IMG/VR virus record: IMGVR_UViG_3300045918_000340
Coordinates: 1-48,347 of that record
DNA from: a virus
Length of the DNA: 48,347 nt
Reading direction: 5' to 3' (one strand)
The notes below the pieces were generated by a model. The model was not told the DNA's origin. It did no database searches and saw only the letters and a list, made by a program, of their open reading frames with translations. The position numbers were made by a program, and so were the translations under genes. Shown piece by piece: positions 1,140 to 43,911 of the stretch (within the stretch, counting starts at the first letter, position 1; each line of letters begins with the position of its first letter).

Positions 1140-1141
1140 TC

Positions 1142-1441: not shown

Positions 1442-1445
1442 GAAC

Positions 1446-1454
1446 GATAAATAG
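1446..1454 (+). promoter_or_regulatory. late promoter GATAAATAG
   Basis: Strong late box right after the stop of the coiled-coil gene and 8 bases before tRNA-Ser. Confidence 0.65.
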
Positions 1455-1461
1455 AATCACT

Positions 1462-1553
1462 GGAGCCGTGGCAGAGCGGCCTATCGCATCACCTTGGAAA
1501 GGTGAAGATCGTGGCAACACGGTCCGTGGGTTCGAATCCCACCGGCTCCTCCA
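1462..1553 (+). tRNA. tRNA-Ser (anticodon GGA)
   Basis: Acceptor GGAGCCG pairs with CGGCTCC, the discriminator is T and CCA is encoded. The anticodon loop ttGGAaa is closed by TCACC/GGTGA. A long variable arm is present, as expected for serine, and the T-loop is TTCGAAT. It stands alone, far from the main tRNA array. Confidence 0.93.
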
Positions 1554-1719
1554 GTACAGTAGAGAATCACACGCCGGCCCACCATTGCGACTGCTACGAG
1601 TTCATGACTCCCGCTCTTGCTTAACAACGCGAACATAGTCTTCGGACAGGCTTCGTCACCAGCACCGTCAATCGGCCGAACGACTAAGTGCAATAAGGGC
1701 GCTGTGTCTTCTCTGCCTA

Positions 1720-1733
1720 CGCTGAACCTAAAC
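1720..1733 (+). repeat. 14-base sequence CGCTGAACCTAAAC, one of two inverted copies
   Basis: The exact reverse complement lies at 26699-26712, again in an intergenic region. Shorter forms such as CGAACCTAAAT occur at gene ends near 2480 and 22425. Function unknown. The rest of the 255-base gap 1554-1808 shows only a -10-like TACTAT and the late box. Confidence 0.4.
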
Positions 1734-1770
1734 AATGCCTTACACAAGGTGTGAAGTTGTGGTACTATAC

Positions 1771-1778
1771 GTAAATAG
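1771..1778 (+). promoter_or_regulatory. late-promoter-like box GTAAATAG
   Basis: Lies 30 bases before the PEP-CTERM gene, at the spacing seen for other late boxes. Confidence 0.5.
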
Positions 1779-1808
1779 ACATTACTCCACGTTAACTATA
1801 GGCATCAC

Positions 1809-2486
1809 ATGAACCTTCGCACCCTCATCGCTTCTGCTGCTCTTGCTCTATCGGTCGGTGCGCACGCTGAATCTGGTACGCTTACCTTCAGCGACTTCGT
1901 TCACAACGCTGACTTCAATGCGTCAACGCTCTACCACGGCTTCAGCTTCGGCTCGGCCTGGTTTCCAAACCCAAGCACCGAGATTCGCGACCCGTACCTC
2001 GCGCTGAGCACCAATGGCGGCGCGCGCAGCGTCTTCGTCGAGCGAGCTGACCACACGCCGTTCAACCTCGATAGCTTCAACTACGCTGGTCGCAGTGACA
2101 CTGGCCTCGCCTACCTCGTCATGTACAACGGTGGCACCACGGTGTTCAGCGGCACCACGGACAACAACGGCAAGCTTCAGTTCAAGACCCTCGCTCCGGC
2201 GCCGACTGGCGTTCCTGGCGGTCAGACGTTCAGCGTCGCTGCTACGTCGGGCTACACCGGACAAATCACTGGCTTCAGCTTCGCCTTCAAGGCAGCTGGC
2301 GGTGGCTTCGGCGATGGCAGCGATTCGCTGCAGTTTGCCTTTGACACGATGAAGTACAGCAACGCGACAGCCGCAGCGGCTCTGCCGCCAGTTACGCCGG
2401 CCGTGCCTGAACCGCAGACCTATGCGCTGATTCTCGCTGGTCTTGGCGTCCTCGTCTTCAAGGGACGTCGTCAGCGCCGAACCTAA
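1809..2486 (+). CDS. exported PEP-CTERM protein
   Basis: 225 residues in three parts: a signal peptide (1-20, cut after AHA), a Gly/Ser/Thr-rich beta-type domain, and a C-terminal sorting tail. The tail starts with VPEPQTY, continues as a hydrophobic helix (ALILAGLGVLVF) and ends in the basic cluster KGRRQRR. This is the classical PEP-CTERM arrangement, processed by a membrane exosortase and linked to extracellular polysaccharide in many betaproteobacteria. The ectodomain has the FSFAFK and SDSLQFAFD patterns common in such proteins. No exosortase gene is in the window, so a host enzyme would be needed. The role in infection is unknown. Confidence 0.88.
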   Translation: MNLRTLIASAALALSVGAHAESGTLTFSDFVHNADFNASTLYHGFSFGSAWFPNPSTEIRDPYLALSTNGGARSVFVERADHTPFNLDSFNYAGRSDTGLAYLVMYNGGTTVFSGTTDNNGKLQFKTLAPAPTGVPGGQTFSVAATSGYTGQITGFSFAFKAAGGGFGDGSDSLQFAFDTMKYSNATAAAALPPVTPAVPEPQTYALILAGLGVLVFKGRRQRRT

Positions 2487-2494
2487 ATACGAGT

Positions 2495-2510
2495 GGACCT
2501 GGAAAGGTCC
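2495..2510 (+). terminator. short hairpin with GGAA loop
   Basis: GGACCT-GGAA-AGGTCC is a perfect 6-bp stem just after the PEP-CTERM gene. The following TTCAGGGTT is only weakly U-rich, so termination is possible but not certain. Confidence 0.4.
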
Positions 2511-2527
2511 TTCAGGGTTAGAATCAG

Positions 2528-2536
2528 GATAAATAC
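2528..2536 (+). promoter_or_regulatory. late promoter GATAAATAC
   Basis: Strong late box 57 bases before the vWA gene. Confidence 0.6.
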
Positions 2537-2592
2537 AAACGTCGCAACGGAGCGACACAACTTTATCACTTTCACCTTTGAAGGATTTCCAA

Positions 2593-3654
2593 ATGAAGAA
2601 CTACATTCTTTTCGTCCGCGACCACTCTGCCTCCATGGGCAGCCTCGCTCAAGCCGCCAAGCGCGACTTCAACGAGCAACTGGCGTCAATTCAGGCGTCA
2701 GCAACCTCCCTCGATCAAGAAACCCTTGTCTCCGTCCTGACCATCTGCGTCGGCCGTGATTCCAAGATCGGGCGCGAGGTCGTGAACACCGACGTTCGTC
2801 GCGTTCAATCGATCGCTCACTACGCGACCGAAGGCCACTCCACTCCGATGATCAAGGCCGTCTTCGACGGCATCGAGCTGCTCGAAGCCCTGCCCGACTA
2901 CAACGATCCTGAAGTCTCCTTCCTCGTCGTCACCACGACCGACGGACAAGAGAACTGCGACCGTCATCGTGGTCGTGAGCTCGCCGCCAAGATCCGTACG
3001 CTCGTCGGCACCGATCGCTGGACCTTCGCCTTCCGCGTGCCGAAGCAAGGCGGCGTCAAGGACCTCGCAAGCCTCGGCATTCTGCAAGCGCCGGTCAGCA
3101 TCTTCGAGTGGGACCTGAACTCACGTGGTGTCGAGGTCTCGACGCAAGCCAACGTGCAAGCGTTCGACGCCTACTTCGCCGAGCGTGCAACTGGCAAGCG
3201 CGCCACGTCACGCTTCTACGCGAATGCTGCCGACGTGTCGGTGGACGAAGCTCGCAAGAGCCTCATCGACGTGTCGAGCGAGGTCACCCTGTTCCCGGTC
3301 GCCGCATGCGATGCTGGCACGCTGATCCGTCCGTTCGTCGAAGCCAAGCTGGGCGAGGCGATGGTTCGCGGTGGTGCGTTCTACCAGCTCGTCAAGCTCG
3401 AGCCGAAGGTGCAAGCCAACAAGCGCATCGCCATTCGCGACAAGTCGACCGGCACCGTGTTCGCTGGTGACGCCGCTCGTCAGATGCTGGCGCTGCCAAC
3501 CATCGGCACCGTTCGTCTGGCTCCCGATGACACCGGCGATTGGGACATTTTTATCCAAAGCACTTCGGTCAATCGCAAGCTTGATCCCAACACCCAGTTG
3601 ATGTATTGGAAGGGTGTTGGTAAGGCATTCAAGGAAGGTCCGTCGGCAACCTGA
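2593..3654 (+). CDS. von Willebrand factor A domain protein
   Basis: 353 residues. The MIDAS metal site is clear near the N-terminus: D10-x-S12-x-S14 after the strand YILFVR. Later vWA elements include the threonine region (HSTPMIK) and the hydrophobic strand VSFLVVTTTDG. About 150 residues follow without a recognised domain. The ATG at 2593 follows a GAAGGA ribosome site. vWA domains bind partner proteins through a divalent metal; the partner here is unknown. The last hundred or so bases use AT-richer codons than the rest, next to the homing endonuclease whose gene overlaps this one tail to tail by 26 bases. Confidence 0.82.
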   Translation: MKNYILFVRDHSASMGSLAQAAKRDFNEQLASIQASATSLDQETLVSVLTICVGRDSKIGREVVNTDVRRVQSIAHYATEGHSTPMIKAVFDGIELLEALPDYNDPEVSFLVVTTTDGQENCDRHRGRELAAKIRTLVGTDRWTFAFRVPKQGGVKDLASLGILQAPVSIFEWDLNSRGVEVSTQANVQAFDAYFAERATGKRATSRFYANAADVSVDEARKSLIDVSSEVTLFPVAACDAGTLIRPFVEAKLGEAMVRGGAFYQLVKLEPKVQANKRIAIRDKSTGTVFAGDAARQMLALPTIGTVRLAPDDTGDWDIFIQSTSVNRKLDPNTQLMYWKGVGKAFKEGPSAT

Positions 3655-9388: not shown

Positions 9389-9623
9389 CAAGTGGAGCGC
9401 CGAGGACCTGGCCTTCGTAAAGTCTGGCGCTTTCTCGATGGGCGCCGTTGGGCGTCGCATTCGCAACGAGTACGGGCTGTGGAATCCGTCGTGTCCGCTG
9501 ACCGCACGCTGGCACGCTGACCCTGCCAACCGCTTCATTCGTGACGGCATCGACTTCTCCGTCGACCATCCGGACAGCGTGGCCGAGCGCATCGAGAGCC
9601 TGCTTCGGGAGCAGCTGCAATGA
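9330..9623 (+). CDS. DUF6794-like hypothetical protein
   Basis: 97 residues. The core GAVGRRIRNEYGLWN, followed by a DFSVDHPDSVAE block, resembles a small family of unknown function (DUF6794), in which a GxxIRNxxGLW motif is followed by an HPDD motif. A GTG at 9360 is an alternative start that would remove most of the overlap with the preceding gene. Confidence 0.7.
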   Translation: MKISSRRPASVEAIVSDIRDKWSAEDLAFVKSGAFSMGAVGRRIRNEYGLWNPSCPLTARWHADPANRFIRDGIDFSVDHPDSVAERIESLLREQLQ

Positions 9624-10192
9624 AGATCCTCTTTCTCGATATCGACGGCGTGCTGAACAGCTCACGCTCCGTGCTGGCCCGCAGCGGACAGCACCTGATG
9701 AACATTGGTGCTTACAATGCAGTGCGCATGCTCTGCGCTGGCGAGCTGCCGTACGGCATCAAGCAATCGCTGGAGACGGTCGACCCAGTCGCCGTTGACC
9801 TCGTCAATCGCTTGCTCTCGAAGGATGAGGACCTGCGCATCGTGCTGTCCAGCTCACATCGCTCGTACTTCTCCTCTGTCGCCTATCTGACGCAGTTCGG
9901 CTCTGGCGAGCATCTCGCCGCGCTTCAGACCTACCTCAAGGCGCTTGGGCTGATGGCTGATCGCCTCATCGGCTGCACGCCGCAGCTCCACACCTACCGT
10001 GGCACCGAGTGTCGCAAGTGGTTGGAAGAGCATCGTGAGGTGCGATACGCGTGCGCGCTCGACGATGGCGCCGACTTTCACAAGGGCGACTGCTACCACG
10101 TGCTCGTCAATCCAGCCATTGGCTTCTCAGCGGACGACTACTACCAAGTATGTCGCCACCTCTTCATCGACGAAAGTCCCATTCTGATCTAA
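9620..10192 (+). CDS. HAD-family hydrolase
   Basis: 190 residues. Motif I is FLDIDGVLN, with nucleophile D7 and acid D9. Motif II is IVLSSSH and the late acidic motif is ALDDGADF. This matches the HAD group found alone or fused in phage RNA-repair proteins, where it acts as a phosphatase on nucleotides or RNA ends; the substrate here is unknown. It overlaps the previous gene by 4 bases and is followed by a GGAGG site for the next. Confidence 0.85.
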   Translation: MKILFLDIDGVLNSSRSVLARSGQHLMNIGAYNAVRMLCAGELPYGIKQSLETVDPVAVDLVNRLLSKDEDLRIVLSSSHRSYFSSVAYLTQFGSGEHLAALQTYLKALGLMADRLIGCTPQLHTYRGTECRKWLEEHREVRYACALDDGADFHKGDCYHVLVNPAIGFSADDYYQVCRHLFIDESPILI

Positions 10193-17357: not shown

Positions 17358-18476
17358 ATGAAGGTCTATCTGGTTGGCGGCGCCGTCCGCGACATGCTGT
17401 TGAACCGTACGCCCAAGGATCGCGACTACGTGGTCGTTGGCGCTACCGAGCAGGAGCTGCTCGACGACGGGTTCGAGCGCGTTGGCAAGGACTTCCCAGT
17501 CTTTCTGCACCCCGTCACGAAGGACGAGTGGGCGCTGGCACGAACCGAGCGCAAGGTCGGGCGTGGCTACGGTGGCTTCGAGGTCGAGACGGATGACGTC
17601 ACGATCGAGCAGGACTTGGAGCGCCGTGATCTGACGATCAACTCCATCGCCTACGACGCTGAAGAAGATCTGTACGTCGACCCACATGGCGGTGTCTACG
17701 ATCTGCAACGCCACATGCTGCGCCACACGTCCGATGCCTTTCGCGAGGACCCGCTGCGCGTCGTTCGACTGGCTCGCTTCTACGCGCGCTACGCTCAACA
17801 CGGCTTCACGGTCGCCGCTGGAACGATGACGCTGGCCGCCGAAGTGGTTGACAGCGGCGAGCTGGACGAGCTGCCGGATGAACGCTTCTGGGCCGAGCTG
17901 GAGAAGGTCTTCACCGACGATGGTCAGCCAGCCAAGTTCTTCGAGCTGCTGTACGAGGTTGGCGCGCTGAACGACGTTCGCTTCTTCCGTGAGCTGTTCG
18001 GTCCGAACGTCACGTCGCACTCGCTGGATCGCATCATGAGAATGGCGCGGTCAGTCTTCAACGTGATTGAACCAGCTGCTCGCGTCGACTTCTTCGCAGC
18101 TGGGACGATGCCGTTGGGTGTGCTGCCGATGACGTTCTCGACCACGCGGTGCATGAAGCTGTACGCTGCGCAGCGCGACATTCGCCTGATCCACACGCAG
18201 AACCCGGCGACGCTGGTCGAGTTTCTGACGCGCATCAGCGCTTGGAACTCGCGCACCACCGCCGACGATCTGGTCGCACTGTTGGACGTCGTCGAGGACG
18301 CCGGCTACAACTCGCTGTACCCGTTCGAGTCGACGGAGCTGGCCGAGATCATTCAAGCTGGCCGGAGCGTCGTGTCTGGGCCGTTCCAACACCTGGTTGG
18401 CAGGGCAATCGGTCAGGCCATGATGTCCGAACGGATCGTTCGCGTCAACGACGCGCTGAACCGTATCAGCTCTTGA
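17358..18476 (+). CDS. cca: CCA-adding tRNA nucleotidyltransferase
   Basis: 372 residues. The class II nucleotidyltransferase head is complete: VGGAVRD (7-12), the metal pair DRD (D21, D23), ARTERK, and the template motif LERRDLTINSIAYD followed by DPHGGVYDL. The helical body carries the EDPLRVVRLARFYAR block. It adds or repairs the 3' CCA end of tRNA. At least two tRNAs in this window lack an encoded CCA, giving it substrates made by the phage itself; it may also repair ends damaged by host nucleases. Expression is from the operator-type promoter. The length is near that of short bacterial enzymes without an HD domain. Confidence 0.95.
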   Translation: MKVYLVGGAVRDMLLNRTPKDRDYVVVGATEQELLDDGFERVGKDFPVFLHPVTKDEWALARTERKVGRGYGGFEVETDDVTIEQDLERRDLTINSIAYDAEEDLYVDPHGGVYDLQRHMLRHTSDAFREDPLRVVRLARFYARYAQHGFTVAAGTMTLAAEVVDSGELDELPDERFWAELEKVFTDDGQPAKFFELLYEVGALNDVRFFRELFGPNVTSHSLDRIMRMARSVFNVIEPAARVDFFAAGTMPLGVLPMTFSTTRCMKLYAAQRDIRLIHTQNPATLVEFLTRISAWNSRTTADDLVALLDVVEDAGYNSLYPFESTELAEIIQAGRSVVSGPFQHLVGRAIGQAMMSERIVRVNDALNRISS

Positions 18477-29801: not shown

Positions 29802-32369
29802 ATGAAGCGCTCGCGAATCTCTCTCGCAGTCGGCCTTCTGACCCTCCTGACAGCCTGCGGTGGTGGTAGCGTCGAGTCCGACGTCCCCTCAGCACAGACC
29901 GCCAGTGGCCAGCTTCCCACAGCCGAAGTCCACCCAACCTTTCACATGTCGGCAGTCCTTCCGGACGAGCCGAGCGATGTCGATGCCAGCGGTGGCAGCG
30001 TCTCGGCCTTCATGCCACCGGCCTCCAAGCCCGTGCCGGTCGAGCTGCAAGGCCTCTCCACCAAGCAGCTCACTCTGCAAGCTTTGACCGACGCCAGGGG
30101 CAAGACTCACGCGCTTGCCGCTGGCTCGGTCAAGCCGATGGTGTCGGTGTCCTACACCCCAGCTCAGATTCGCGCAGCCTACGGTCTGCCGGCGGTCGCA
30201 GCCTCCACACCCGTTCAGCTCGGCGCTGGCCAGACGATCTACATTCTGGATGCGTACGACAACCCGACCGCGCTGGCTGACCTCAACGCCTTCTCGACGA
30301 AGTTCGGCCTCCCGCTCTGCACCAACGTCGCAGTCACGGCGGCCAACGCCTTCCCCCTCGCTGCCCCGTCCAGTGGCTGCGACTTCTCGGTCATCTACAC
30401 CGACTCCACCGGCAACATCGTCCCGACGGCGCCGACCTACGACTCTGGTTGGGCTGGTGAGATCGCTCTCGACGTTCAATGGGCTCACGCCATCGCTCCG
30501 CTCGCCCGCATCGTGCTGGTCGAAGCGCAGAACTCCTACATCGACCGCCTCTACTACGCCACGAAGACCATCAACAAGATGGGCCCGGGCCCGGTGTCCA
30601 TGTCGTTCGGTGCTCCGGAATATCCTGGCTACACCGACACCACTCGCGACGCCTTCCTCGCGCCTGGCTACACCTACCTCGCAGCGACTGGCGACAATGG
30701 CTACCAAGCCATGTGGCCCGCCGTGATGGGTGAAGTGGTTGCCGTCGGCGGCACCTCGCTGAACTGGTCTGGCACTGGTACTCGCACCGAGACCGCTTGG
30801 TCTGGCGCTGGTGGTGCTGTCAGTCAGTACGTGCCGCTCCCGTCGTATCAAGTCAATCTCAAGCTCGCCGATGGCTCAACGCCGACGATGCGCGCAGTGG
30901 CTGACGTCTCGATGAACGCTGACCCGTCCACTGGCCAGTACGTCGCGATGACGTACAACGGTACGGTCAACTGGTTCACGTTCGGTGGGACCAGCATGTC
31001 GACACCGATGTGGGCAGGCTTCGTCGCTCTTGGCAACGCTCAACGTGCTGCCGCTAGCCAACCTGTCATCGGTCGCATTCACAGCGCGATCTACGCCGCT
31101 GGTCAAGCTGCAACGACCTACGCGCAAGTCTTCCTCGACGTGACGACTGGCGCCAACGGAACCTGCAAGTACTGCGCCGCCACGACGAAGTACGACATCC
31201 CGACCGGCTTCGGCACTCCCAACGGTTTCGAGATGGTGGCGAACCTCGCCAGGTACGCCACGTCGACGCCCACTCCGACCCCGACGCCCACACCGCCGGC
31301 TCCGACCCCGCCGACTTCGATCTCGGTTCCTGGTGGCAACATCCCTGGCCGCGCTGGTGCTCCGCTCAGCTACACCCTTGGCATTCAAGCCCTGCCCAGT
31401 GGCTCGTACACCTACGCAGTGTCTGGTGTGTCTGGTGTCACGGTCAGCACGATGGGTGTCCTCACCTGGGCGAAGCCTGTCCTTGGCACGTGGAACGCTA
31501 CGGTGACGGTCAAGTCGACGACTGGCCAATCAGCCAGCGGTGTCTACAAGTTCGTCATCGGTGCTGCCAACAAGGCTCCGCTGGTGCAGAACATCGCGCT
31601 CTCACTGACGACCGCTCAGACTGTCTCGACCACGCCGATGTCCTCAGACCCCGATGGTGATGCGCTGACCTTCAAGCTCGGCTCAGTCGCTCCGGCCGGC
31701 CTGGCGCTGACAACCGCTGGTGGCCTCACCTTCGCGCCTACCACCAAGGGTGTCTACACGATCCGTGTCATCGCCACCGATACGTATGGTGCCAGCTCGA
31801 CCAGCACCGCAACGTTCACGGTCACGACCGCACCGTCCACCCCGGTCATCGAGATCGCCACGGACTTCATCGAAGTGCCAGCCGGTCTGCCCGTCAGCCT
31901 GCAAGCGGTGATCACGAACGCTGATGGTCTGAGGCCTGTGACTCGGCTGATCAACGCTCCGGCCGGAATGACGCTCAGCTCCACTGGTCTCATCACTTGG
32001 CCGAAGGCTGTGGTTGGAACCTACACGGTGACGCTCGAAGCCAAGGACCCGAGTGGCCTGACCAGTACGCACTCCTTCACCGTGCAGGCCAACGCTCCCA
32101 CACCGCCGACCCTCATCGAGCTGACCCTCGCCGTCAAGCCGAACCAAGTCTTCGCGATGCAGATCCCGGCCTCGACGACGAACGGTACCTCACTGAGCTA
32201 TGTCCTCTACTCTGTCAACCCGACGCCCACTCCGGTAGGTCTGACGGTTAGCTCGACTGGCATGCTTCGCTGGACCAAGACCGTGAAGGGAACCTACTTC
32301 GTCACGATCATGGTGACAGATGCCCTCGGTCTGAAGTCCTCAGGCGTCATCTCTTTGCAAGTGATGTAA
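29802..32369 (+). CDS. sedolisin (peptidase S53) lipoprotein with Ig-like repeats
   Basis: 855 residues, the largest gene here. Lipobox LLTAC (Cys19) follows a signal peptide. Residues about 110-490 are an S53 protease: the Glu-x3-Asp pair E220/D224 (GWAGEIALDVQW), the oxyanion Asp in ATGDNG (D298), and nucleophile Ser398 in FGGTSMSTP. The substrate strand EVVAVGGTSL also fits. A Pro/Thr linker (PTPTPTPTPPAPTPP) follows, then three to four cadherin/Ig-like repeats of about 85 residues, each ending in a GTxxVTVxAxD-type strand. S53 enzymes are acid-active proteases, usually secreted by bacteria or fungi. On a phage it could act at the host surface. Base composition matches its neighbours. Confidence 0.9.
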   Translation: MKRSRISLAVGLLTLLTACGGGSVESDVPSAQTASGQLPTAEVHPTFHMSAVLPDEPSDVDASGGSVSAFMPPASKPVPVELQGLSTKQLTLQALTDARGKTHALAAGSVKPMVSVSYTPAQIRAAYGLPAVAASTPVQLGAGQTIYILDAYDNPTALADLNAFSTKFGLPLCTNVAVTAANAFPLAAPSSGCDFSVIYTDSTGNIVPTAPTYDSGWAGEIALDVQWAHAIAPLARIVLVEAQNSYIDRLYYATKTINKMGPGPVSMSFGAPEYPGYTDTTRDAFLAPGYTYLAATGDNGYQAMWPAVMGEVVAVGGTSLNWSGTGTRTETAWSGAGGAVSQYVPLPSYQVNLKLADGSTPTMRAVADVSMNADPSTGQYVAMTYNGTVNWFTFGGTSMSTPMWAGFVALGNAQRAAASQPVIGRIHSAIYAAGQAATTYAQVFLDVTTGANGTCKYCAATTKYDIPTGFGTPNGFEMVANLARYATSTPTPTPTPTPPAPTPPTSISVPGGNIPGRAGAPLSYTLGIQALPSGSYTYAVSGVSGVTVSTMGVLTWAKPVLGTWNATVTVKSTTGQSASGVYKFVIGAANKAPLVQNIALSLTTAQTVSTTPMSSDPDGDALTFKLGSVAPAGLALTTAGGLTFAPTTKGVYTIRVIATDTYGASSTSTATFTVTTAPSTPVIEIATDFIEVPAGLPVSLQAVITNADGLRPVTRLINAPAGMTLSSTGLITWPKAVVGTYTVTLEAKDPSGLTSTHSFTVQANAPTPPTLIELTLAVKPNQVFAMQIPASTTNGTSLSYVLYSVNPTPTPVGLTVSSTGMLRWTKTVKGTYFVTIMVTDALGLKSSGVISLQVM

Positions 32370-32637: not shown

Positions 32638-32681
32638 GTTACACTTCAACTAGTGTTCAATCGGTCAGGTTGGTGTATAAT
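32638..32681 (+). promoter_or_regulatory. TATAAT promoter with GTTACA half-site
   Basis: GTTACA 32638-32643 and TATAAT 32676-32681, spacing 32. No left TGTAAC; instead a GTTACG lies about 19 bases upstream. The -10 ends 7 bases before the ATG at 32689, so the transcript would be nearly leaderless. Confidence 0.68.
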
Positions 32682-32688
32682 GGCATCT

Positions 32689-32907
32689 ATGAAAACCCGT
32701 GACCAACTCCTCAAAGCCTTCTGTGTTGCCGTTGACCGTGATGCCATGGCCAAGCTGGTGAATGAAGCCCTCGACTCGCTTCAGTTCGCAGAGCTTCAAC
32801 AGGCTCTGGCCGAAGCGCGTCTCAAGAAGGCTGGTGAGCAGATTGCTCGTCAAGCCAAGATGATTGACGAGCTCAATCAAGCTCTGGCTGGTCCCAAACG
32901 AAAGTAA
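32689..32907 (+). CDS. small helical protein from a leaderless transcript
   Basis: 72 residues, helical with Leu/Ala/Glu/Lys (LQQALAEARLKKAGEQIARQ), so probably coiled coil. ATG 32689 is chosen because earlier ATGs overlap the -10 box. The predicted start of transcription falls at the start codon. Not recognised. Confidence 0.68.
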   Translation: MKTRDQLLKAFCVAVDRDAMAKLVNEALDSLQFAELQQALAEARLKKAGEQIARQAKMIDELNQALAGPKRK

Positions 32908-32910
32908 GTC

Positions 32911-33966
32911 ATGTCCAAGCTCCTCACTCGTGAAGCCTTTCGTGAAGGCGTCTTCGCCCGCGACGGCCACAAGTGCGTGGTCTGCGGCAAGACCGCTGAG
33001 CAAACCCCTGAGGGCAAGCTCGACGCGCATCACATCATCGAACGTCGGCTCTGGTCCGACGGCGGCTACTACCTCGACAACGGAGCAACGGTCTGTGAAG
33101 AACATCACCTGGAGTGCGAGCGAACTATCCGCAGCGTCGAAGAAGTTCGAGCTCAATGTGGTATTACCACGATTGTCGTCCCCGACCAATTTTACCCCGA
33201 GCAGCCAATCACCAAGTGGGGCGACTATGTCCTCGATAACGGCTACCGCACAAAGGGTGAGCTGTTCTTTGACGTCAGCGTACAGAAGGTCCTGCGGGAC
33301 GCCGGAGTCCTAGACCTCTACGTTCCGTACGTCAAGTACGGTCGGACGTTCCATCTGCCGTTCTCGCCTGGGATGCACGACGATGACAAGGCGCTGAAGG
33401 ACTGCGAGCAGTTCGAAGGCAAGGACGTCGTCATCTCCATCAAGTTCGACGGTGAGAACACCTCGGGCTACAGCGATGGCCACGTTCACGCTCGCTCCAT
33501 CGACAGCCGTGGTGGCGAGGAGCGCGCCTGGGTCAAGCGATTCCTGGCCGAGAACGTGTGCTACAACCTACCCGAAGGGTGGCGCGTCTGTGGCGAGAAC
33601 GTTTGGGCCGAGCACAGCATCAAGTACACCGACCTGCCCTCCTACTTCCTCGGCTTCAGCATCTGGAACGAGAAGAACGAATGTCTGTCGTGGGACGACA
33701 CGCTCGAGTGGTTCGAGCTGCTGGACATCACGCCGGTCAAGGTTCTCTACCGTGGTCCGTTCAACGGCGACGTGCTGAAGTACGCGACCGAGTTCGTTGC
33801 TCCACTGTGGGAGACCACTGAGGGCTACGTCGTTCGCGTTGCCGATAGCTTCAAGTACGGCGACTTCAAGAAGAGCGTTGCGAAGTACGTTCGCAAGGGC
33901 CACGTTCAAACCCAGAAGCACTGGCGTGCCGGTGCTCACTTCAAACCAAACGGACTCGCAAAGTGA
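32911..33966 (+). CDS. HNH endonuclease-RNA ligase fusion
   Basis: 351 residues with two domains. Residues 15-70 are an HNH zinc nuclease: C22-VVC25, then DAHHIIERR (H40/H41), N57 in LDNG, and CEEHH (C62, H65/H66). Residues about 95-350 are a nucleotidyltransferase of the RNA ligase family: motif I ISIKFDGEN with Lys178 as the adenylated lysine, a motif IV-like EGYVVRV, and motif V KSVAKYVRKGH. RNA ligases reseal broken tRNA during phage infection. A nuclease fused to a ligase could cut and rejoin, or the HNH part may only hold RNA ends. The HNH residues look intact. Confidence 0.88.
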   Translation: MSKLLTREAFREGVFARDGHKCVVCGKTAEQTPEGKLDAHHIIERRLWSDGGYYLDNGATVCEEHHLECERTIRSVEEVRAQCGITTIVVPDQFYPEQPITKWGDYVLDNGYRTKGELFFDVSVQKVLRDAGVLDLYVPYVKYGRTFHLPFSPGMHDDDKALKDCEQFEGKDVVISIKFDGENTSGYSDGHVHARSIDSRGGEERAWVKRFLAENVCYNLPEGWRVCGENVWAEHSIKYTDLPSYFLGFSIWNEKNECLSWDDTLEWFELLDITPVKVLYRGPFNGDVLKYATEFVAPLWETTEGYVVRVADSFKYGDFKKSVAKYVRKGHVQTQKHWRAGAHFKPNGLAK

Positions 33967-34346
33967 TCATCAAATCCATTCAGAGCATCGACTGTCAAGA
34001 TCTCGACGAGCTCATCGTCGAAACGTACGGTCGGCCATTCAACTTTCAACAGCAAGACGGCTGCAAGTCGCGTGGCGTCGATCACATCACCGTGCCAGTG
34101 TCGGACCCGTACGACTACGAGAACGACACGATTCCTGAAGAGGTCAATGGCGACGAGATGGGCGTGTCGTTTGCCGCGTGGCTGGCTCGAGACCCGAAGC
34201 AAAAGCTGTCAAGCAACGACTACGAGTGGTCACTTGACCTGTTCTGGTCTCGCAACTTCTACCCGAACCTCGACATGGTCGTCAACGACCTTCACGCCCG
34301 TGGTCTGCTGCCCGCCGGCGAGTACCAGATCGTGATCGACTGGTAA
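33963..34346 (+). CDS. hypothetical acidic protein
   Basis: 127 residues from GTG 33963, overlapping the ligase stop. Asp/Glu/Tyr-rich with YGRPFNFQQQDGCKSRG and a C-terminal GLLPAGEYQIVIDW. Resembles small T4-like phage proteins of unknown role. Confidence 0.7.
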   Translation: MIIKSIQSIDCQDLDELIVETYGRPFNFQQQDGCKSRGVDHITVPVSDPYDYENDTIPEEVNGDEMGVSFAAWLARDPKQKLSSNDYEWSLDLFWSRNFYPNLDMVVNDLHARGLLPAGEYQIVIDW

Positions 34347-36444: not shown

Positions 36445-37203
36445 ATGGCCATCACTCTCAAAGAATTCCTAGTCCTGCTCGAGGACCGTACCGATCAGGC
36501 CATCAAGGACTTTGGTGCGAAGGTTGGCACCGCGCTCTCAGATGACTCGAGCCCGAACAAGCCGAAGGACGCCGAGGGCGCCATTCGCGAGCTGGCCAAG
36601 ATCAGCCCAACGAACATCATGTGGCTGAGCCGCATGTACGCTGCCAAGCAGTTCAAGCTCGAAGATGCAAGCCGCGTCAAGAAGACAATCGAGACGTTCG
36701 ACAAGGTCAAGAAGAAGTTGGAGGTCAGAGACCTCAACAACTACAAGACGCTTGGCGCTCTGTACGACGCCATCGAGCCGCACGATGGCGCTGCCGACGA
36801 GCTGTCGAAGAAGCAAGCTGCGAGACAGATCAAGACCAATGAGACCGAAGTCTTTCTGAAGGAGCCTGACCTGCTTGTGCTCATTCCAAAGTCTGAAGCC
36901 GCTGCGTGCAAGTACGGCGCTGGCACCAAGTGGTGTACCGCTGCTGACTCTGACAACATGTTCAGCCACTACGATGCTCAGGGCAAGCTCTACATCGTCA
37001 TCGCGCCGACGCTGCCGAAGAAGGGCGACTATGAGCGCAAGTTCCAGCTGCACTATCAGACCGACTCGTTCATGGACGAGCGTGACGAGCCAGTTGGCAA
37101 GGCTGACATCAGCGCGCTGAGCAAGCTGCCGGGCTACACGAAGTTCCTCAACAAGCTCATCAAACTTCACTACGGTCCGCACATCGACGCCCTGGAGGCG
37201 TAA
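36445..37203 (+). CDS. late protein with KYGAGTKWCTA motif
   Basis: 252 residues. N-terminus MAITLKEFLVLLEDRTDQ contains LLE-D. The C-terminal half contains ACKYGAGTKWCTAADSDNMF followed by LYIVIAP, a motif widely seen in proteins of T4-like and jumbo phages (YGSxTKWCTA...NMF..Y), function unknown. The invariant Trp-Cys and Asn suggest an active site. TAATG overlap with the next gene. Confidence 0.78.
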   Translation: MAITLKEFLVLLEDRTDQAIKDFGAKVGTALSDDSSPNKPKDAEGAIRELAKISPTNIMWLSRMYAAKQFKLEDASRVKKTIETFDKVKKKLEVRDLNNYKTLGALYDAIEPHDGAADELSKKQAARQIKTNETEVFLKEPDLLVLIPKSEAAACKYGAGTKWCTAADSDNMFSHYDAQGKLYIVIAPTLPKKGDYERKFQLHYQTDSFMDERDEPVGKADISALSKLPGYTKFLNKLIKLHYGPHIDALEA

Positions 37204-40093: not shown

Positions 40094-40170
40094 TGGTCGT
40101 TAGCTCAATCAGGCAGAGCACTCGCCTCCAAAGCGATAGGTTGTGGGTTCGATTCCTACACGGCCAGCCA
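40094..40170 (+). tRNA. tRNA-Trp (anticodon CCA)
   Basis: Acceptor TGGTCGT/ACGGCCA, discriminator G, encoded CCA. Loop ctCCAaa. First gene of the array; a second tRNA-Trp is at 47467. Confidence 0.9.
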
Positions 40171-40179
40171 AATTTGAAT

Positions 40180-40254
40180 GCCTTCATAGCTCAGTGGTAG
40201 AGCACCGTCTTGATAAGGCGTAGGTCCTTGGTTCGATCCCAAGTGAAGGCACCA
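40180..40254 (+). tRNA. tRNA-Ile (anticodon GAT)
   Basis: Acceptor GCCTTCA/TGAAGGC, discriminator A, encoded CCA. Loop ttGATaa. Confidence 0.92.
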
Positions 40255-40265
40255 AGTTATTCAAT

Positions 40266-40340
40266 GCCGAGTTGGACTTTTGGTGAGGTCCTCTGCCCTT
40301 CAAGCAGAAGAGACGGGTTCGATTCCCGTACTCGGTACCA
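40266..40340 (+). tRNA. tRNA-Glu (anticodon TTC), copy 1
   Basis: Acceptor GCCGAGT/ACTCGGT, discriminator A, encoded CCA. Loop ccTTCaa has C rather than U at position 33. Identical to the gene at 41959-42033 except for the first base. Confidence 0.9.
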
Positions 40341-40350
40341 ACAATTCTGT

Positions 40351-40422
40351 TGGGGTCTGGTGTTCTGGTGAACACAGTCGGCTTTGACCCGACCGAGGTG
40401 GGTTCGATCCCCACGTCCCCTG
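40351..40422 (+). tRNA. tRNA-Gln (anticodon TTG) without encoded CCA
   Basis: Anticodon arm GTCGG-ctTTGac-CCGAC and T-arm GTGGG/CCCAC are clear. The acceptor TGGGGTC pairs imperfectly with GTCCCCT and the 3' end reads T-G-C-A, so CCA must be added by Cca. Confidence 0.85.
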
Positions 40423-40428
40423 CATCCC

Positions 40429-40477
40429 GCATCGCAGTTCAGCACACATCTTTTTGTGTTACAATGAACTGCGATGC
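40429..40477 (+). promoter_or_regulatory. 13-bp hairpin enclosing the start of a homing endonuclease gene
   Basis: GCATCGCAGTTCA (40429-40441) pairs perfectly with TGAACTGCGATGC (40465-40477), with an inner ACACA/TGTGT stem. The start codon at 40474 lies in the right arm. Read-through RNA from the tRNAs would hide the start. Confidence 0.75.
40460..40465 (+). promoter_or_regulatory. -10 box TACAAT inside the hairpin loop
   Basis: The TGTGTTACAAT context gives a transcript beginning near 40472, lacking the left arm of the hairpin and nearly leaderless. Confidence 0.5.
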
Positions 40478-41109
40478 AAAAGCCACCTAAGACTTACCAC
40501 TACCTTTATCGAACAACCTGTCTTGTGACAGGCAAGTTCTATGTTGGTATGCACTCAACAGACGACCTCAACGACGGTTATCTTGGGAGCGGAAAGATTT
40601 TAGGTCGCTCTCGCAAAAAGCATGGTGACGAAAAACATGTGAAAGAAATTCTTGAACACTGTGCCTCTCGTGAAGCGCTGAAACTTCGTGAGAAGGAAAT
40701 AGTCTCAGCAGAGATGCTCGCCAACCCGTTGAACATCAATTTGAAGATTGGCGGCGAAGGCGGTTGGGATCATATACCGCAGGAGGTAGTTCTATCGAAC
40801 CTCTCAAAAAGAAATGTTGGTTGGGCGACCTACAACAGATCAGAAAAGGGAAGGCTCAAAGCCTCTGAAAACATTCGCAAGATAAATGTTGTTGGTCGAA
40901 AGTCTTCTTATGGTTTTCGTGGCAAACAACATACCGATGAAACTAAACAAATTCAAAGCCAGCACCATCAAGGTGCTGGCAACTCTCAATACGGAACTTG
41001 TTGGGTAACCAAAGACAACAAGTCATCCAAAATCAAAAAGACTGACCTTGACGAATACCTCGCTAATGGTTTCTCGAAAGGCAGAGTAATTTCTAAAATG
41101 GTGATGTAG
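40474..41109 (+). CDS. GIY-YIG homing endonuclease in the tRNA array
   Basis: 211 residues. GIY-YIG core YHYLYRTTCLVTGKFYVGMHS, conserved Arg in LGRSRKKHG, and the Glu/Gly-rich INLKIGGEGGWDH block. The C-terminal QYGTCWVTK followed by KKTDLDEYLANGFSKGR is a DNA-binding module shared with the second array endonuclease. AT-richer than the surrounding genome. It lies between tRNA-Gln and a distorted tRNA gene and its stop TAG is formed by bases 8-10 of that tRNA. Start codon is held in a hairpin. Confidence 0.92.
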   Translation: MQKPPKTYHYLYRTTCLVTGKFYVGMHSTDDLNDGYLGSGKILGRSRKKHGDEKHVKEILEHCASREALKLREKEIVSAEMLANPLNINLKIGGEGGWDHIPQEVVLSNLSKRNVGWATYNRSEKGRLKASENIRKINVVGRKSSYGFRGKQHTDETKQIQSQHHQGAGNSQYGTCWVTKDNKSSKIKKTDLDEYLANGFSKGRVISKMVM

Positions 41110-41225
41110 TGTAGTGGCAGCACAGAAAACATCGTTCGCGCTTTTTGTTGCGCAAGTAACCGCTTGTGAATGGTTATCTTTATCATCCAAAGCTAGGGTT
41201 GGTTCGAATCCAGCCATCACCACCA
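41100..41225 (+). tRNA. tRNA-like gene with an insertion of about 50 bases
   Basis: Both ends are typical: acceptor GGTGATG/CATCACC, discriminator A, encoded CCA, T-arm GTTGG-TTCGAAT-CCAGC, and a D-arm TAGTGTAGTGGCAGCA identical to that of tRNA-His at 42208. The middle is about 50 bases too long. A possible anticodon arm is TAACCG-cttGTGaa-TGGTTA (His), with an extra hairpin before it (TTCGCGC...GCGCAAG) and a CTTT/AAAG variable-arm stem after it. It could be a pseudogene, an intron-bearing tRNA or a tRNA-like RNA. Confidence 0.6.
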
Positions 41226-41233
41226 AAATCAAT

Positions 41234-41309
41234 TCCGTCTTAGTATTCTCGGCGAGTACCTCCGGCTGTTAACCGGATGAGTCTGGTTCGAATCCAGAAG
41301 ACGGAGCCA
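41234..41309 (+). tRNA. tRNA-Asn (anticodon GTT), copy 1
   Basis: Acceptor TCCGTCT/AGACGGA, discriminator G, CCA encoded. TCCGG-ctGTTaa-CCGGA. Confidence 0.93.
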
Positions 41310-41317
41310 AGATCTGA

Positions 41318-41390
41318 TGGGGAGCGTCAAGGTTTGACCGACTCGGCTCTGACCCGAGTTGCTTAGGTTCGAGTCCTAACTCCCTTGCCA
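41318..41390 (+). tRNA. tRNA-Gln (anticodon CTG)
   Basis: CTCGG-ctCTGac-CCGAG anticodon arm. Acceptor TGGGGAG/CTCCCTT has a U-U first pair, CCA encoded. Confidence 0.9.
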
Positions 41391-41398
41391 AATTCTAT

Positions 41399-41474
41399 GC
41401 GTCGTTATCCGATGTGGTCATGGAAGCTCCCTGAAGAGGAGATAAACCGGGTTCGATTCCTGGACGACGCACCA
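41399..41474 (+). tRNA. tRNA-Phe (anticodon GAA)
   Basis: Acceptor GCGTCGT/ACGACGC, A, CCA. Loop ctGAAga. Confidence 0.92.
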
Positions 41475-41482
41475 ATTATAAT

Positions 41483-41557
41483 ACTCGCTTGGTTCAGTGG
41501 TGGAACGCTTCCTTGACATGGAAGAGGTCGCAGGTCCGATTCCTGCAGCGAGTACCA
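41483..41557 (+). tRNA. tRNA-Val (anticodon GAC)
   Basis: Acceptor ACTCGCT/AGCGAGT, A, CCA. CTTCC-ttGACat-GGAAG. Confidence 0.93.
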
Positions 41558-41565
41558 AATTACAT

Positions 41566-41640
41566 GGGGTGCAAACTTTGACGGTGAAGCTCTGGCTCTT
41601 AACCAGATGGAAGACAGTTCGAATCTGTCGCGCCCCACCA
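41566..41640 (+). tRNA. tRNA-Lys (anticodon CTT), copy 1
   Basis: Acceptor GGGGTGC/GCGCCCC, A, CCA. TCTGG-ctCTTaa-CCAGA. Confidence 0.92.
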
Positions 41641-41648
41641 AACACAAT

Positions 41649-41716
41649 ACCCGGTCCAATGGATTGGCTGCGGTCCTACGAAGGCTGCGTGATCGGTTCG
41701 ACTCCGATACTGGGTT
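41649..41716 (+). tRNA. tRNA-Arg (anticodon ACG), short, no encoded CCA
   Basis: Acceptor ACCCGGT/ACTGGGT, discriminator T followed by CAT instead of CCA. Loop ctACGaa. The D-arm CCAA-TGGA-TTGG has only a four-base loop, making the tRNA about five bases short. The same D-arm occurs in tRNA-Arg(CCG) at 46844. Confidence 0.82.
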
Positions 41717-41725
41717 CATGATAAT

Positions 41726-41800
41726 GGGTTCGTAGCTCAGAGGCAGAGCAGGCGGCTCTTAACCGTCAGGCCGAGATTTCGAAATTCTCCGGACCCACCA
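41726..41800 (+). tRNA. tRNA-Lys (anticodon CTT), copy 2
   Basis: Acceptor GGGTTCG/CGGACCC, A, CCA. GGCGG-ctCTTaa-CCGTC. Differs widely from copy 1, so not a recent duplicate. Confidence 0.88.
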
Positions 41801-41806
41801 AGATAC

Positions 41807-41870
41807 AGACAACCGTACGACTCAGCGTTATCCTGTTAAGATTCCCCGCTTTGTCACTCCTTTGTTGTCT
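41807..41870 (+). ncRNA. candidate structured RNA, copy B
   Basis: AGACAAC (41807-41813) pairs with GTTGTCT (41864-41870). Inner stem AGCG/CGCT encloses TTATCCTGTTAAGATTCC. The loop resembles that of copy A while the closing pairs differ, a covariation pattern. Confidence 0.5.
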
Positions 41871-41874
41871 CAAT

Positions 41875-41950
41875 ATCCCGTTCGTCTAGCGGCCAAGGAC
41901 ACTGCCCCCTCAAGGCGGGAACTCCGGTTCAAATCCGGAACGGGATTCCA
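41875..41950 (+). tRNA. tRNA-Glu (anticodon CTC)
   Basis: Acceptor ATCCCGT/ACGGGAT, T, CCA. Loop ccCTCaa, again C at position 33 as in the other Glu tRNAs. Confidence 0.88.
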
Positions 41951-41958
41951 AATACAAT

Positions 41959-42033
41959 ACCGAGTTGGACTTTTGGTGAGGTCCTCTGCCCTTCAAGCAG
42001 AAGAGACGGGTTCGATTCCCGTACTCGGTACCA
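41959..42033 (+). tRNA. tRNA-Glu (anticodon TTC), copy 2
   Basis: 74 of 75 bases identical to 40266-40340; the first base is A here, which restores the A-U end pair of the acceptor stem. Confidence 0.92.
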
Positions 42034-42040
42034 GCATAAT

Positions 42041-42115
42041 GGATCGGTAGCCTAACGGTCAGGCACCTCTCTGTCTAAGAGGTTCAAGCGGGTTCGACTC
42101 CCGTCCGGTCCGCCA
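42041..42115 (+). tRNA. tRNA-Asp (anticodon GTC)
   Basis: Acceptor GGATCGG/CCGGTCC, G, CCA. CCTCT-ctGTCta-AGAGG. Confidence 0.93.
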
Positions 42116-42121
42116 GCATGT

Positions 42122-42197
42122 AGGCTTTAGAGTGATTGGAAATCCTATCCCTTTCATGAGGGGATGTTGCGAGGTTTGAATCCTCGATAGCCCGCCA
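42122..42197 (+). tRNA. tRNA with anticodon CAT (Met or Ile2), copy 1
   Basis: TCCCT-ttCATga-GGGGA anticodon arm; T-arm CGAGG/CCTCG; discriminator G, CCA encoded. The first acceptor pair is an A-C mismatch. The three G-C pairs typical of initiator tRNA are absent, so elongator Met or Ile2 is likely. Confidence 0.85.
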
Positions 42198-42207
42198 GAT
42201 ATTCAAT

Positions 42208-42281
42208 GGTGGTTCTAGTGTAGTGGCAGCAAGACGGTCTGTGAAACCGTAAGGCAGGGTTCGATTCCCGGTCCCACCCCA
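42208..42281 (+). tRNA. tRNA-His (anticodon GTG), copy 1
   Basis: ACGGT-ctGTGaa-ACCGT. The acceptor GGTGGTT pairs with TCCCACC at five positions; discriminator C, CCA encoded. D-arm shared with the distorted tRNA at 41100. Confidence 0.85.
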
Positions 42282-42290
42282 CCTGATTCA

Positions 42291-42299
42291 GATAAATAG
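42291..42299 (+). promoter_or_regulatory. late box GATAAATAG abutting a start codon
   Basis: Perfect box, but the ATG at 42303 is only 3 bases after it, so a transcript from it would start at or after the ATG. Confidence 0.5.
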
Positions 42300-42302
42300 A
42301 AG

Positions 42303-42947
42303 ATGAACAAACATCATCTAGTTTATCGCACGACGAACCTTCTGAACGGAAGGTATTACATCGGCATCCATTCAACGTCGAACATCGACGATGGGTATCT
42401 TGGTAGCGGTCGTAGGATCAAGGCGGAAATCAAGAAGTACGGTCAAGAGAATTTCAAGCGTGAGATCCTTGAGTCATACCCAACAAGGCAAGAAGTCTTG
42501 AAACGCGAAGCCGAATTGGTCACTGAAGAACTTCGTCAAGATTCGCTCTGTCTGAATCTTAAGAATGGCGGCGAAGGCGGTTGGGAACATCTGAATGACA
42601 ACTCTGAGGTCCAACGCGCAAAAGGACGTAAAGGAAATGCCAGCATCAAGATCTTGGCAAATGATCCTATTTGGGCCGCATCAAGAAGCGCAGCAATCAG
42701 CAATGGTCTTCGCGGAAAGTCTGCTGGGTGGAGTGAACAAGCAACAATGGCTTCGCACACCGATGAAGTAAATCAAAAGCGAAGTCGCACAATGAAAGAC
42801 TTGGCAAGGCAATCAGGCCAAGCAAATTCCCAGTTCGGAACCTGTTGGGTGACCAACGGGTTTCCAATAAAGATCAAGAAACAAGATCTCGATTCGTATC
42901 TGACAAATGGATATGTTCGAGGAAGAACAAAACAATGGTGCACGTAG
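42303..42947 (+). CDS. second GIY-YIG homing endonuclease in the tRNA array
   Basis: 214 residues. Core HHLVYRTTNLLNGRYYIGIHS, catalytic Arg region (GSGRRIKAEIKK), LNLKNGGEGGWEH, and the C-terminal QFGTCWVTN followed by KKQDLDSYLTNGYVRGR. It is a clear paralogue of the endonuclease at 40474. It lies between two tRNA-His genes; its stop TAG is bases 8-10 of the second. AGATGA/TCATCT around the start forms a small hairpin holding the ATG. AT-rich compared with neighbours. Confidence 0.92.
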   Translation: MNKHHLVYRTTNLLNGRYYIGIHSTSNIDDGYLGSGRRIKAEIKKYGQENFKREILESYPTRQEVLKREAELVTEELRQDSLCLNLKNGGEGGWEHLNDNSEVQRAKGRKGNASIKILANDPIWAASRSAAISNGLRGKSAGWSEQATMASHTDEVNQKRSRTMKDLARQSGQANSQFGTCWVTNGFPIKIKKQDLDSYLTNGYVRGRTKQWCT

Positions 42948-43013
42948 ATCAATTGGTAGATCCCGGGATTGTGATTCCCGTCGTTGTGGGTTCGAGTCCC
43001 ATCGTGCACCCCA
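42937..43013 (+). tRNA. tRNA-His (anticodon GTG), copy 2
   Basis: Acceptor GTGCACG/CGTGCAC with the extra G at -1 facing discriminator C, as expected for histidine. CGGGA-ttGTGat-TCCCG, CCA encoded. Confidence 0.94.
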
Positions 43014-43023
43014 GTATTTCAAT

Positions 43024-43097
43024 GCCCTCGTAGCACATTGGTCGTGCGCACCTTTGGTATGGGTGAGAACAGAGTTCGATTCTCTGCTTGGGCACCA
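43024..43097 (+). tRNA. tRNA-Thr (anticodon GGT)
   Basis: CACCT-ttGGTat-GGGTG. Acceptor GCCCTCG/CTTGGGC has two mismatches, A, CCA. Confidence 0.88.
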
Positions 43098-43105
43098 ACT
43101 ATAAC

Positions 43106-43181
43106 GCCCGCGAAGTATTACCTGGTGGTACGCGTCTTTCGTACGGATGAGGACTCAGTTCGAGGCTGAGCGTGGGCTCCA
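43106..43181 (+). tRNA. tRNA-Thr (anticodon CGT)
   Basis: Acceptor GCCCGCG/CGTGGGC, T, CCA. Loop ttCGTac closed by CGTCT/GGATG. Confidence 0.88.
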
Positions 43182-43188
43182 GTACAAT

Positions 43189-43266
43189 TGTGGTCGAGCA
43201 AGCAAGGTGTATGCACCGCACTGTTAATGCGGACAGAGCCGGGTTCGATTCCTGGGACCACAGCCA
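43189..43266 (+). tRNA. tRNA-Asn (anticodon GTT), copy 2
   Basis: Acceptor TGTGGTC/GACCACA, G, CCA. CCGCA-ctGTTaa-TGCGG. Confidence 0.93.
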
Positions 43267-43275
43267 GATCAAAGT

Positions 43276-43350
43276 GTCTCCGTAGTTCAACGGAGAGAAT
43301 AGGACGCTACGAACGTTCAGACGGGGGTTCGATTCCCTCCGGAGGCACCA
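43276..43350 (+). tRNA. tRNA-Arg (anticodon ACG), normal length
   Basis: Acceptor GTCTCCG/CGGAGGC, A, CCA. GGACG-ctACGaa-CGTTC. Same anticodon as the short gene at 41649. Confidence 0.9.
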
Positions 43351-43351
43351 C

Positions 43352-43359
43352 TATAAATA
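43352..43359 (+). promoter_or_regulatory. late promoter TATAAATA
   Basis: Exact T4 late consensus, 28 bases before the gene at 43388. Confidence 0.8.
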
Positions 43360-43387
43360 AGTCATCGCAACTCAACCGGATAAGCGT

Positions 43388-43633
43388 ATGACACTCCTTC
43401 AAGAACTCCTTGACCTGCCAAACAAAGCGCCAAAGGCCTTCAAGGCCGGCGACAAGTTTGACATCACCAACAATGGCCTTCACTTCACCATCGAGGTGGT
43501 CGCCGCCGACAAGGGTCCGTCTGAACTTCAGATCGAGACCGTGCGCGATGGCAAGGCTCGCAAGAGCTACACCGATGCGCTTGAGCTCAGCGCTCGCCTT
43601 CGCGACTGCGAGAAGTTCAAGAAGGTCAAGTAA
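43388..43633 (+). CDS. small late protein within the tRNA array
   Basis: 81 residues. N-terminus MTLLQELLDLP contains LQE-L. The body is a small alpha/beta unit with several Lys residues (AFKAGDKFDITNNGLHFTIE). GC-rich codon use like the phage body, unlike the endonucleases. Perfect late promoter upstream. Not recognised. Confidence 0.75.
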   Translation: MTLLQELLDLPNKAPKAFKAGDKFDITNNGLHFTIEVVAADKGPSELQIETVRDGKARKSYTDALELSARLRDCEKFKKVK

Positions 43634-43641
43634 CAATCAAT

Positions 43642-43716
43642 GGTGCTGAAGCTGAATGGTTAAGCAGCGGTCTCATAAGCCGTGCGTCGTGGGTTCGATT
43701 CCCACCAGCACCACCA
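43642..43716 (+). tRNA. tRNA with anticodon CAT (Met or Ile2), copy 2
   Basis: Acceptor GGTGCTG/CAGCACC, A, CCA. GCGGT-ctCATaa-GCCGT. Confidence 0.92.
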
Positions 43717-43779
43717 ATTACAAGAGGTCGATGCCGGCACCTACGAGGCCGTTGTCGTACGAGTCTAACAACTTGAAAG

Positions 43780-43819
43780 GACGCATCATGCGTACAGTGT
43801 CATCGACGCTTGATGCGTC
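43780..43819 (+). promoter_or_regulatory. 9-bp inverted repeat around a small start codon
   Basis: GACGCATCA (43780-43788) and TGATGCGTC (43811-43819) are perfectly complementary and enclose the start of the 19-codon frame. Confidence 0.5.
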
Positions 43820-43847
43820 TCGAAAACGAACCCCTTTGGGGGCGTAG
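43788..43847 (+). CDS. possible 19-codon peptide
   Basis: MRTVSSTLDASRKRTPLGA behind AAAGGACGCATC, the same leader as the collagen-like gene. The stop TAG is bases 8-10 of tRNA-Lys. Weak evidence; may be a remnant. Confidence 0.3.
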   Translation: MRTVSSTLDASRKRTPLGA

Positions 43848-43911
43848 TTAAGTGGTATAACATGCGGCTTTTACCCGTTCGTCCTGAGTTCGATTCTCAG
43901 TGCCCCTACCA
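43838..43911 (+). tRNA. tRNA-Lys (anticodon TTT)
   Basis: Acceptor GGGGGCG/TGCCCCT, A, CCA. Loop ctTTTac. Confidence 0.9.

Follow-up and report, generated by a model that had tools for sequence, protein, structure and literature searches.

A gene in the window, the whole 48,347-base IMG/VR virus record analysed here and possibly a fragment, encodes an HNH module and an Rnl2-type RNA ligase domain on one chain and is an ordinary member of a known fusion family. Judged from the sequences, both active sites of the family are strongly constrained. The fusion is carried mostly by tRNA-rich phages and giant plasmids, which points to a role in tRNA upkeep or repair. The gene and the parts of its product are as follows.

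32911..33966, + strand: HNH-Rnl2-type RNA ligase fusion gene; ORF with an ATG start, 351 aa; PF09414 and phrog_24030
32911..33165, + strand: HNH core, aa 1-85; conserved site, AlphaFold2 model pLDDT 95, structural matches to HNH nucleases
32974, 32983, 33094 and 33103: HNH-core zinc ligands C22, C25, C62 and H65
33028-33033, 33079 and 33106: HNH-core catalytic or metal residues H40-H41, N57 and H66
33166..33330, + strand: conserved linker, aa 86-140, with KWG at 102-104 and SVQK at 123-126; part of the HNH module
33331..33963, + strand: Rnl2-type adenylyltransferase (ligase) domain, aa 141-351; PF09414, T4 Rnl2 fold
33442: nucleotidyl lysine K178 in KFDG, followed by ligase motif III (GEN, 228-230), motif IV (EGYVVR, 304-309) and motif V (K325)

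The ORF and all the residues named in the initial annotation (C22/C25, H40/H41, N57, C62, H65/H66 and K178) are present, and its placing of both domains on one chain is borne out by PF09414, HNH PHROGs and a full-length phrog_24030 match. The ligase half matches Pfam PF09414 (RNA_ligase) over residues 172-327 (E 2e-24), phrog_24030 ('RNA ligase') covers residues 3-343 (E 2.4e-130), and several HNH endonuclease PHROGs match residues about 9-77 (best E 1.4e-9). Pfam HNH PF01844 falls narrowly below the cut-off (20.5 vs. 21.4 bits, with the first 140 aa scanned alone), and a weak NCBIfam match is to IscB. Full-length homologues in other viruses share 45-69% identity, and together with the low dN/dS given below they put the finding well outside what chance would produce. 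By its end-to-end sequence alignment the protein belongs to the PHROG_24030 or HNH-Rnl2 fusion family. A PDB sequence search with the protein gave no match, and PADLOC returned no defence-system match for it.

The AlphaFold2 model of the protein, built from a 13-sequence alignment, has a mean pLDDT of 88. Superposed on T4 RNA ligase 2 (2hvr_A), residues 138-331 give a Z of 14.9 and 2.7 Å over 177 aa at 16% identity, showing the same adenylyltransferase fold and motifs, and the motif residues K178-D180-G181, E229, E304 and K325 are conserved. T4 RNA ligase 2 differs in having a C-terminal domain and no HNH. The window chain extends only about 25 residues past motif V; because the C-terminal domain is missing, the ligase is classed as minimal Rnl2-like rather than as a full T4-type Rnl2. 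Residues 1-140 modelled alone reach a pLDDT of 95, and the top Foldseek/VIA matches of this model are HNH nucleases, reaching a Z of 6.5 over about 82 aa (Cap5 8fmf, Z 6.5; McrA 6ghc, Z 6.5; IscB 9liq, 2.3 Å over 70 residues). Since these structural Z values are modest, the HNH assignment rests on the site residues, which fit a zinc CxxC...C..[H/C] pattern together with an H-H / N / H catalytic set. The general base is presumably H41, with H40, N57 and H66 at the metal; H41 is thus a better knock-out target than H40. The linker (aa 86-140) showed no match to a separate fold of its own, which has no bearing on novelty.

Searches for the same fusion elsewhere, as the initial annotation had proposed, showed that it is widespread. 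In total, phages, one archaeal virus, bacterial genome records and megaplasmids yielded 97 distinct HNH-Rnl2 fusions (71 viral including the window, 20 from bacterial records and 6 further megaplasmid fusions), and the idea that the fusion is unique to the window assembly was rejected. The viral set comes from two IMG/VR scans followed by ORF-based classification. A tblastn search of 50,697 phage records recovered full-length fusions from nine records of Caulobacter jumbo phages, from uncultured huge phages and from Salicola SCTP-2, Acinetobacter ME3 and the archaeal virus HGTV-1. The 20 bacterial-record fusions, all full-length, come from a GTDB scan, and some of them lie in chromosomal surroundings; the Burkholderiaceae PBA fusion, for example, is on a 1 Mb contig. 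A search of plasmid records added megaplasmid fusions, and the sequences of six of these were analysed. HNH-Rnl2 fusions in jumbo phages were already described by Iyer et al. (2021, Viruses 13:63; PMC7824862), citing earlier work, so the architecture is neither new nor unique; no functional study of such fusions was found in the literature searched. The fusions Caulobacter CcrSC gp219, Acinetobacter ME3 gp200 and Halogranum HGTV-1 gp136 have the same full-length architecture at 28-55% identity, with no essential difference from the window protein. Two candidate split genes (L151 and L045) were read as frameshifted fusions and were therefore left off the split-gene list. In another record (L039, IMGVR_UViG_3300022916_000010, 604-3124), a split-intein-like insertion interrupts the HNH-ligase gene immediately past motif I, with borders KMDGEN|CLDQETEL... 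and ...GILVHN|CSMY, and a separate DUF7487/DUF559 endonuclease-like ORF lies between the gene halves.

Comparisons of the 71 distinct viral fusions showed that C22, C25, H40, H41, N57, C62 and H66 of the HNH and K178, D180 and G181 of the ligase are invariant, as are R45, L47, G52, Y53, E70, K102 and W103. The full HNH site is present in all 71 viral fusions, in 19/20 of those from bacterial records and in 4/6 of those on plasmids, giving 94/97; the six megaplasmid fusions were scored by eye from their sequences. Each of the eight stand-alone HNH proteins examined also has the full catalytic set. Between Caulobacter phage copies, dN/dS is lowest in the HNH core (0.02-0.12), higher in the ligase (0.14-0.27) and highest in the linker (0.30-0.47), after pairs with CcrSC had been discarded for a one-residue offset in the ungapped comparison. 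The conserved site suggests that the HNH of almost all members is an active metal nuclease. The three exceptions are all on Pseudomonas megaplasmids. The Pseudomonas serbica plasmid fusion (L126) has substitutions at H40, R45, H66 and K102, and those of pMPPla107 (L202) and pBASL58 (L203) have lost H40 and H66 and kept H41, N57 and the zinc cysteines. The three form a lineage of natural catalytic-dead HNH variants with retained zinc ligands and a normal ligase. The retention of the HNH despite the loss of H40 and H66 indicates that cutting is not always needed. A general role of the HNH as just a zinc finger is rejected by the conserved catalytic set and would apply at most to this one lineage. 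The counter-case named in the initial annotation, a structural zinc finger only in a fusion unique to the window, is thus contradicted in both halves, with the site complete in 94/97 fusions and the fusion widespread.

The HNH module and the ligase also tend to stay together when they are encoded separately. Separate HNH and ligase genes usually adjoin in either order. The HNH gene lies first at 0.66 kb from the ligase gene in L095/L096 and at 0.43 kb in L100; the distances are 2.2 kb and 1.0 kb in two other loci (L013 and L014), and in LR756501 the genes are far apart. In the permuted locus of LR745206.1 (L027, 5130-6087), the stand-alone ligase comes first and has an 8-nt overlap with the downstream stand-alone HNH gene. 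The stand-alone HNH protein of L100 (144 aa) includes the whole linker, which places the module border near residue 140, and those of L061 and L095 end near KWG. With a short stand-alone HNH as the query, 18 of the 50,697 phage records gave matches, and the ligase was also found in 17 of these 18, the exception being LR756511. This near-strict association is hard to reconcile with a roaming homing endonuclease and suggests that the two share a task. By these sequence comparisons, the HNH and the ligase are shown to be closely tied in evolution.

The window holds 25 tRNAs. Its fusion gene and the other features named in the initial annotation lie in the following surroundings.

9620..10192, + strand: HAD_SAK_2 phosphatase-like protein, PF18143 (E 6e-20)
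17358..18476, + strand: CCA-adding enzyme, PF01743 (E 2.6e-19)
32653..32907, + strand: upstream ORF, 84 aa, no family over the cut-off
33963..34346, + strand: downstream ORF, 127 aa, 4-nt overlap with the ligase stop; phrog_27943, without an assigned function
40094..43911, + strand: main tRNA array with 22 of the 25 window tRNAs, interrupted by two homing-endonuclease-like ORFs

The tRNAs, the Cca enzyme and the HAD protein named in the initial annotation are real, and the two homing-endonuclease-like ORFs (phrog_314) lie at 40474-41109 and 42303-42947. The proposed joint system with the HAD protein is not supported, as HAD_SAK_2 is encoded in only 10/25 fusion-bearing records and is 23 kb away in the window. 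The proposal of a candidate new RNA-repair system fits the context as far as RNA or tRNA repair is concerned and fails on novelty, given the description by Iyer et al. (2021; PMC7824862). Nothing points to the RNA editing that had also been suggested.

Other carriers of the fusion are mostly tRNA-rich. Large viral fusion contigs encode 34-69 tRNAs in 17/18 cases and 0 in the remaining contig (L009). Eight published fusion phages have 4-33 tRNAs, with 4 in ME3, and six fusion megaplasmids have 52, 44, 24, 37, 55 and 3 (24-55 on 5/6). D. radiodurans pMP1, which carries a stand-alone ligase, has 0. Seven hand-picked jumbo phages have 7, 26, 17, 8, 0, 31 and 3 tRNAs; hand-picked jumbo phages without a fusion match reach 26-31 (GAP32 and KVP40). 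The tRNA excess relative to other phages is thus suggestive rather than proven, since the hand-picked jumbo phages reach 31. In Variovorax sp. JS1663 (L125, NZ_LYMK01000001.1, 3112-7167 of a 406 kb contig), the 17th and the 18th gene of a 25-tRNA array flank the fusion. A constant position beside tRNA arrays was rejected, as most phages have arrays elsewhere in the genome.

The neighbours of the fusion vary, and those that recur belong to RNA repair or tRNA metabolism: Pnkp (HAD_PNKP and kinase), Pth2, NADAR, the CCA enzyme and Thg1, the last immediately downstream of the fusion in L098/L099; the Miltoncostaea fusion neighbourhood holds thrS and two peptidyl-tRNA hydrolases. Pnkp is encoded in at least 8 of 43 fusion phage records, and 6 of the 8 strong matches are within 5 kb of the fusion. 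The chance of this proximity is estimated at 6e-4 (contigs >100 kb, the query's own contig excluded), a value that is biased by the choice of Pnkp after it had been seen nearby. Clustering of the neighbours in 84 loci rejected a conserved operon, with no other gene common to more than 6. A role around tRNA is supported by these associations.

Tentatively, we read the fusion as a tRNA or RNA repair enzyme of large tRNA-carrying elements in which the HNH and the ligase act jointly. HNH enzymes leave 5'-P/3'-OH ends, and Rnl2-type ligases seal 5'-P/3'-OH ends. The ends left by the HNH would be those that the ligase class needs, making cut-then-join the likeliest mechanism. According to its fold and motifs, the ligase half would adenylylate itself on K178 and seal 5'-phosphate/3'-hydroxyl breaks. 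The HNH module, with its complete site, would act as a metal nuclease in nearly all members and would open the break that the ligase afterwards closes. A broken tRNA-like RNA, a candidate substrate only, might in this way be freed of a damaged segment or end. The HNH-linker module may also substitute for the missing substrate-binding C-terminal ligase domain. There is some chance, a rather small one, that a single polypeptide cuts and rejoins tRNA (or tRNA-like RNA) within a portable translation-maintenance kit common to jumbo phages, megaplasmids, an archaeal virus and the chromosomes of some bacteria. If the ligase seals the breaks that the HNH makes, the fusion would be a one-chain RNA excision-and-repair enzyme with an unusual RNA-acting HNH; to our knowledge, hardly any RNA-cutting HNH has been described. 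Even if it does not, the preference for tRNA-rich phages and megaplasmids raises the testable question of whether tRNA arrays supply replacements and a repair reserve when host defences cut tRNAs.

Several observations stand against joint repair. The nearest HNH folds cut DNA, a dead HNH is kept in the Pseudomonas megaplasmids and the neighbours are mostly unconserved; GAP32 and KVP40 are tRNA-rich, whereas ME3 has 4 and L009 has 0 tRNAs. In addition, the best-studied stand-alone relative, DRB0100, adenylylates on its lysine and showed no DNA or RNA joining in vitro (PMC1997131), so that ligase-family activity is not to be assumed. DRB0100 and the other stand-alone ligases have the same minimal ligase domain, and the ligase part of the P. 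serbica plasmid fusion is about 48% identical to DRB0100.

The DNA-cutting relatives of the HNH would be accounted for if the chain had two separate jobs, as proposed by Iyer et al. (2021; PMC7824862), with the HNH attacking foreign or host DNA (of a superinfecting phage or a competitor) and the ligase repairing RNA. The structurally closest HNH proteins (Cap5, McrA, IscB and the Cas9 HNH) are all DNA nucleases, in line with the weak NCBIfam match to IscB, and the HNH domains of IscB, McrA and Cap5 share the fold and site of the fusion's HNH. However, these DNA-acting domains reside within quite different proteins. Two separate jobs would leave unexplained why the HNH subfamily almost never occurs without the ligase and adjoins it when split, and the fusion is also found as a lone gene in bacterial chromosomal settings, such as amid the flagellar genes of Devosia YR412 (L119). 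We regard this division of labour as possible and somewhat doubtful.

Alternatively, the HNH module would be a non-cutting substrate-recognition domain that replaces the absent Rnl2 C-terminal domain. Such a role would agree with the short extension after motif V and with the three Pseudomonas megaplasmid fusions that lack H40 and H66 and keep N57 and the zinc ligands. It is made unlikely by the full catalytic set in nearly all fusions and in every stand-alone HNH protein examined, and by the slower evolution of the HNH core compared with the ligase.

Stand-alone ligases lack the HNH and have HD-Pnk as a partner, plus a PARG macrodomain in D. radiodurans, where the cassette DRB0100-DRB0099-DRB0098 encodes the ligase, the PARG macrodomain and HD-Pnk and has been proposed to be an RNA and/or DNA repair operon (PMC11833690). 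The bacterial stand-alone ligase adjoins an HD-Pnk (or Pnk-HD) gene in 52/59 loci, compared with 0/21 of the HNH-linked loci (Fisher p about 1e-13, relatedness ignored), and a tblastn search of the window for HD-Pnk and Pnkp gave no credible match, leaving the window ligase without an adjacent HD-Pnk gene. This difference might mean that the HNH replaces HD-Pnk by providing ligatable ends, so that the ligase would need no end-healing partner. However, HD-Pnk is encoded elsewhere on the same replicon in 5/6 fusion megaplasmids, some with an intact HNH, and that of the Bosea megaplasmid lies beside a second ligase, showing that the fusion works alongside end-healing enzymes in at least some carriers. 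Together with the Pnkp genes of the fusion phages, this renders the replacement quite improbable. A FastTree phylogeny hinted that the ligase had changed partners independently more than once, which is not claimed because an AU test does not reject a single clade of HD-Pnk ligases (p 0.56).

The chance insertion of a mobile homing-endonuclease HNH gene at the ligase, as the homing-type endonucleases in the window's tRNA array might suggest, is very improbable: nearly 100 diverse fusions agree in domain order and border, the site is invariant and the association with the ligase is near-strict.

Other genes were observed near the fusions. In two Anaerolineae genome bins (L110 and L111), a similar gene, methyltransferase-like in L110, lies upstream of the fusion, and an 879-aa protein without a family match overlaps the end of the fusion in L110. 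In the window, positions 29802-32369 encode an 855-aa lipoprotein-like subtilase/sedolisin-type protein with Ig-like repeats, an unusual phage cargo, and a 252-aa ORF at 36445-37203 has a weak match to the large phage proteins phrog_28193/phrog_17056.
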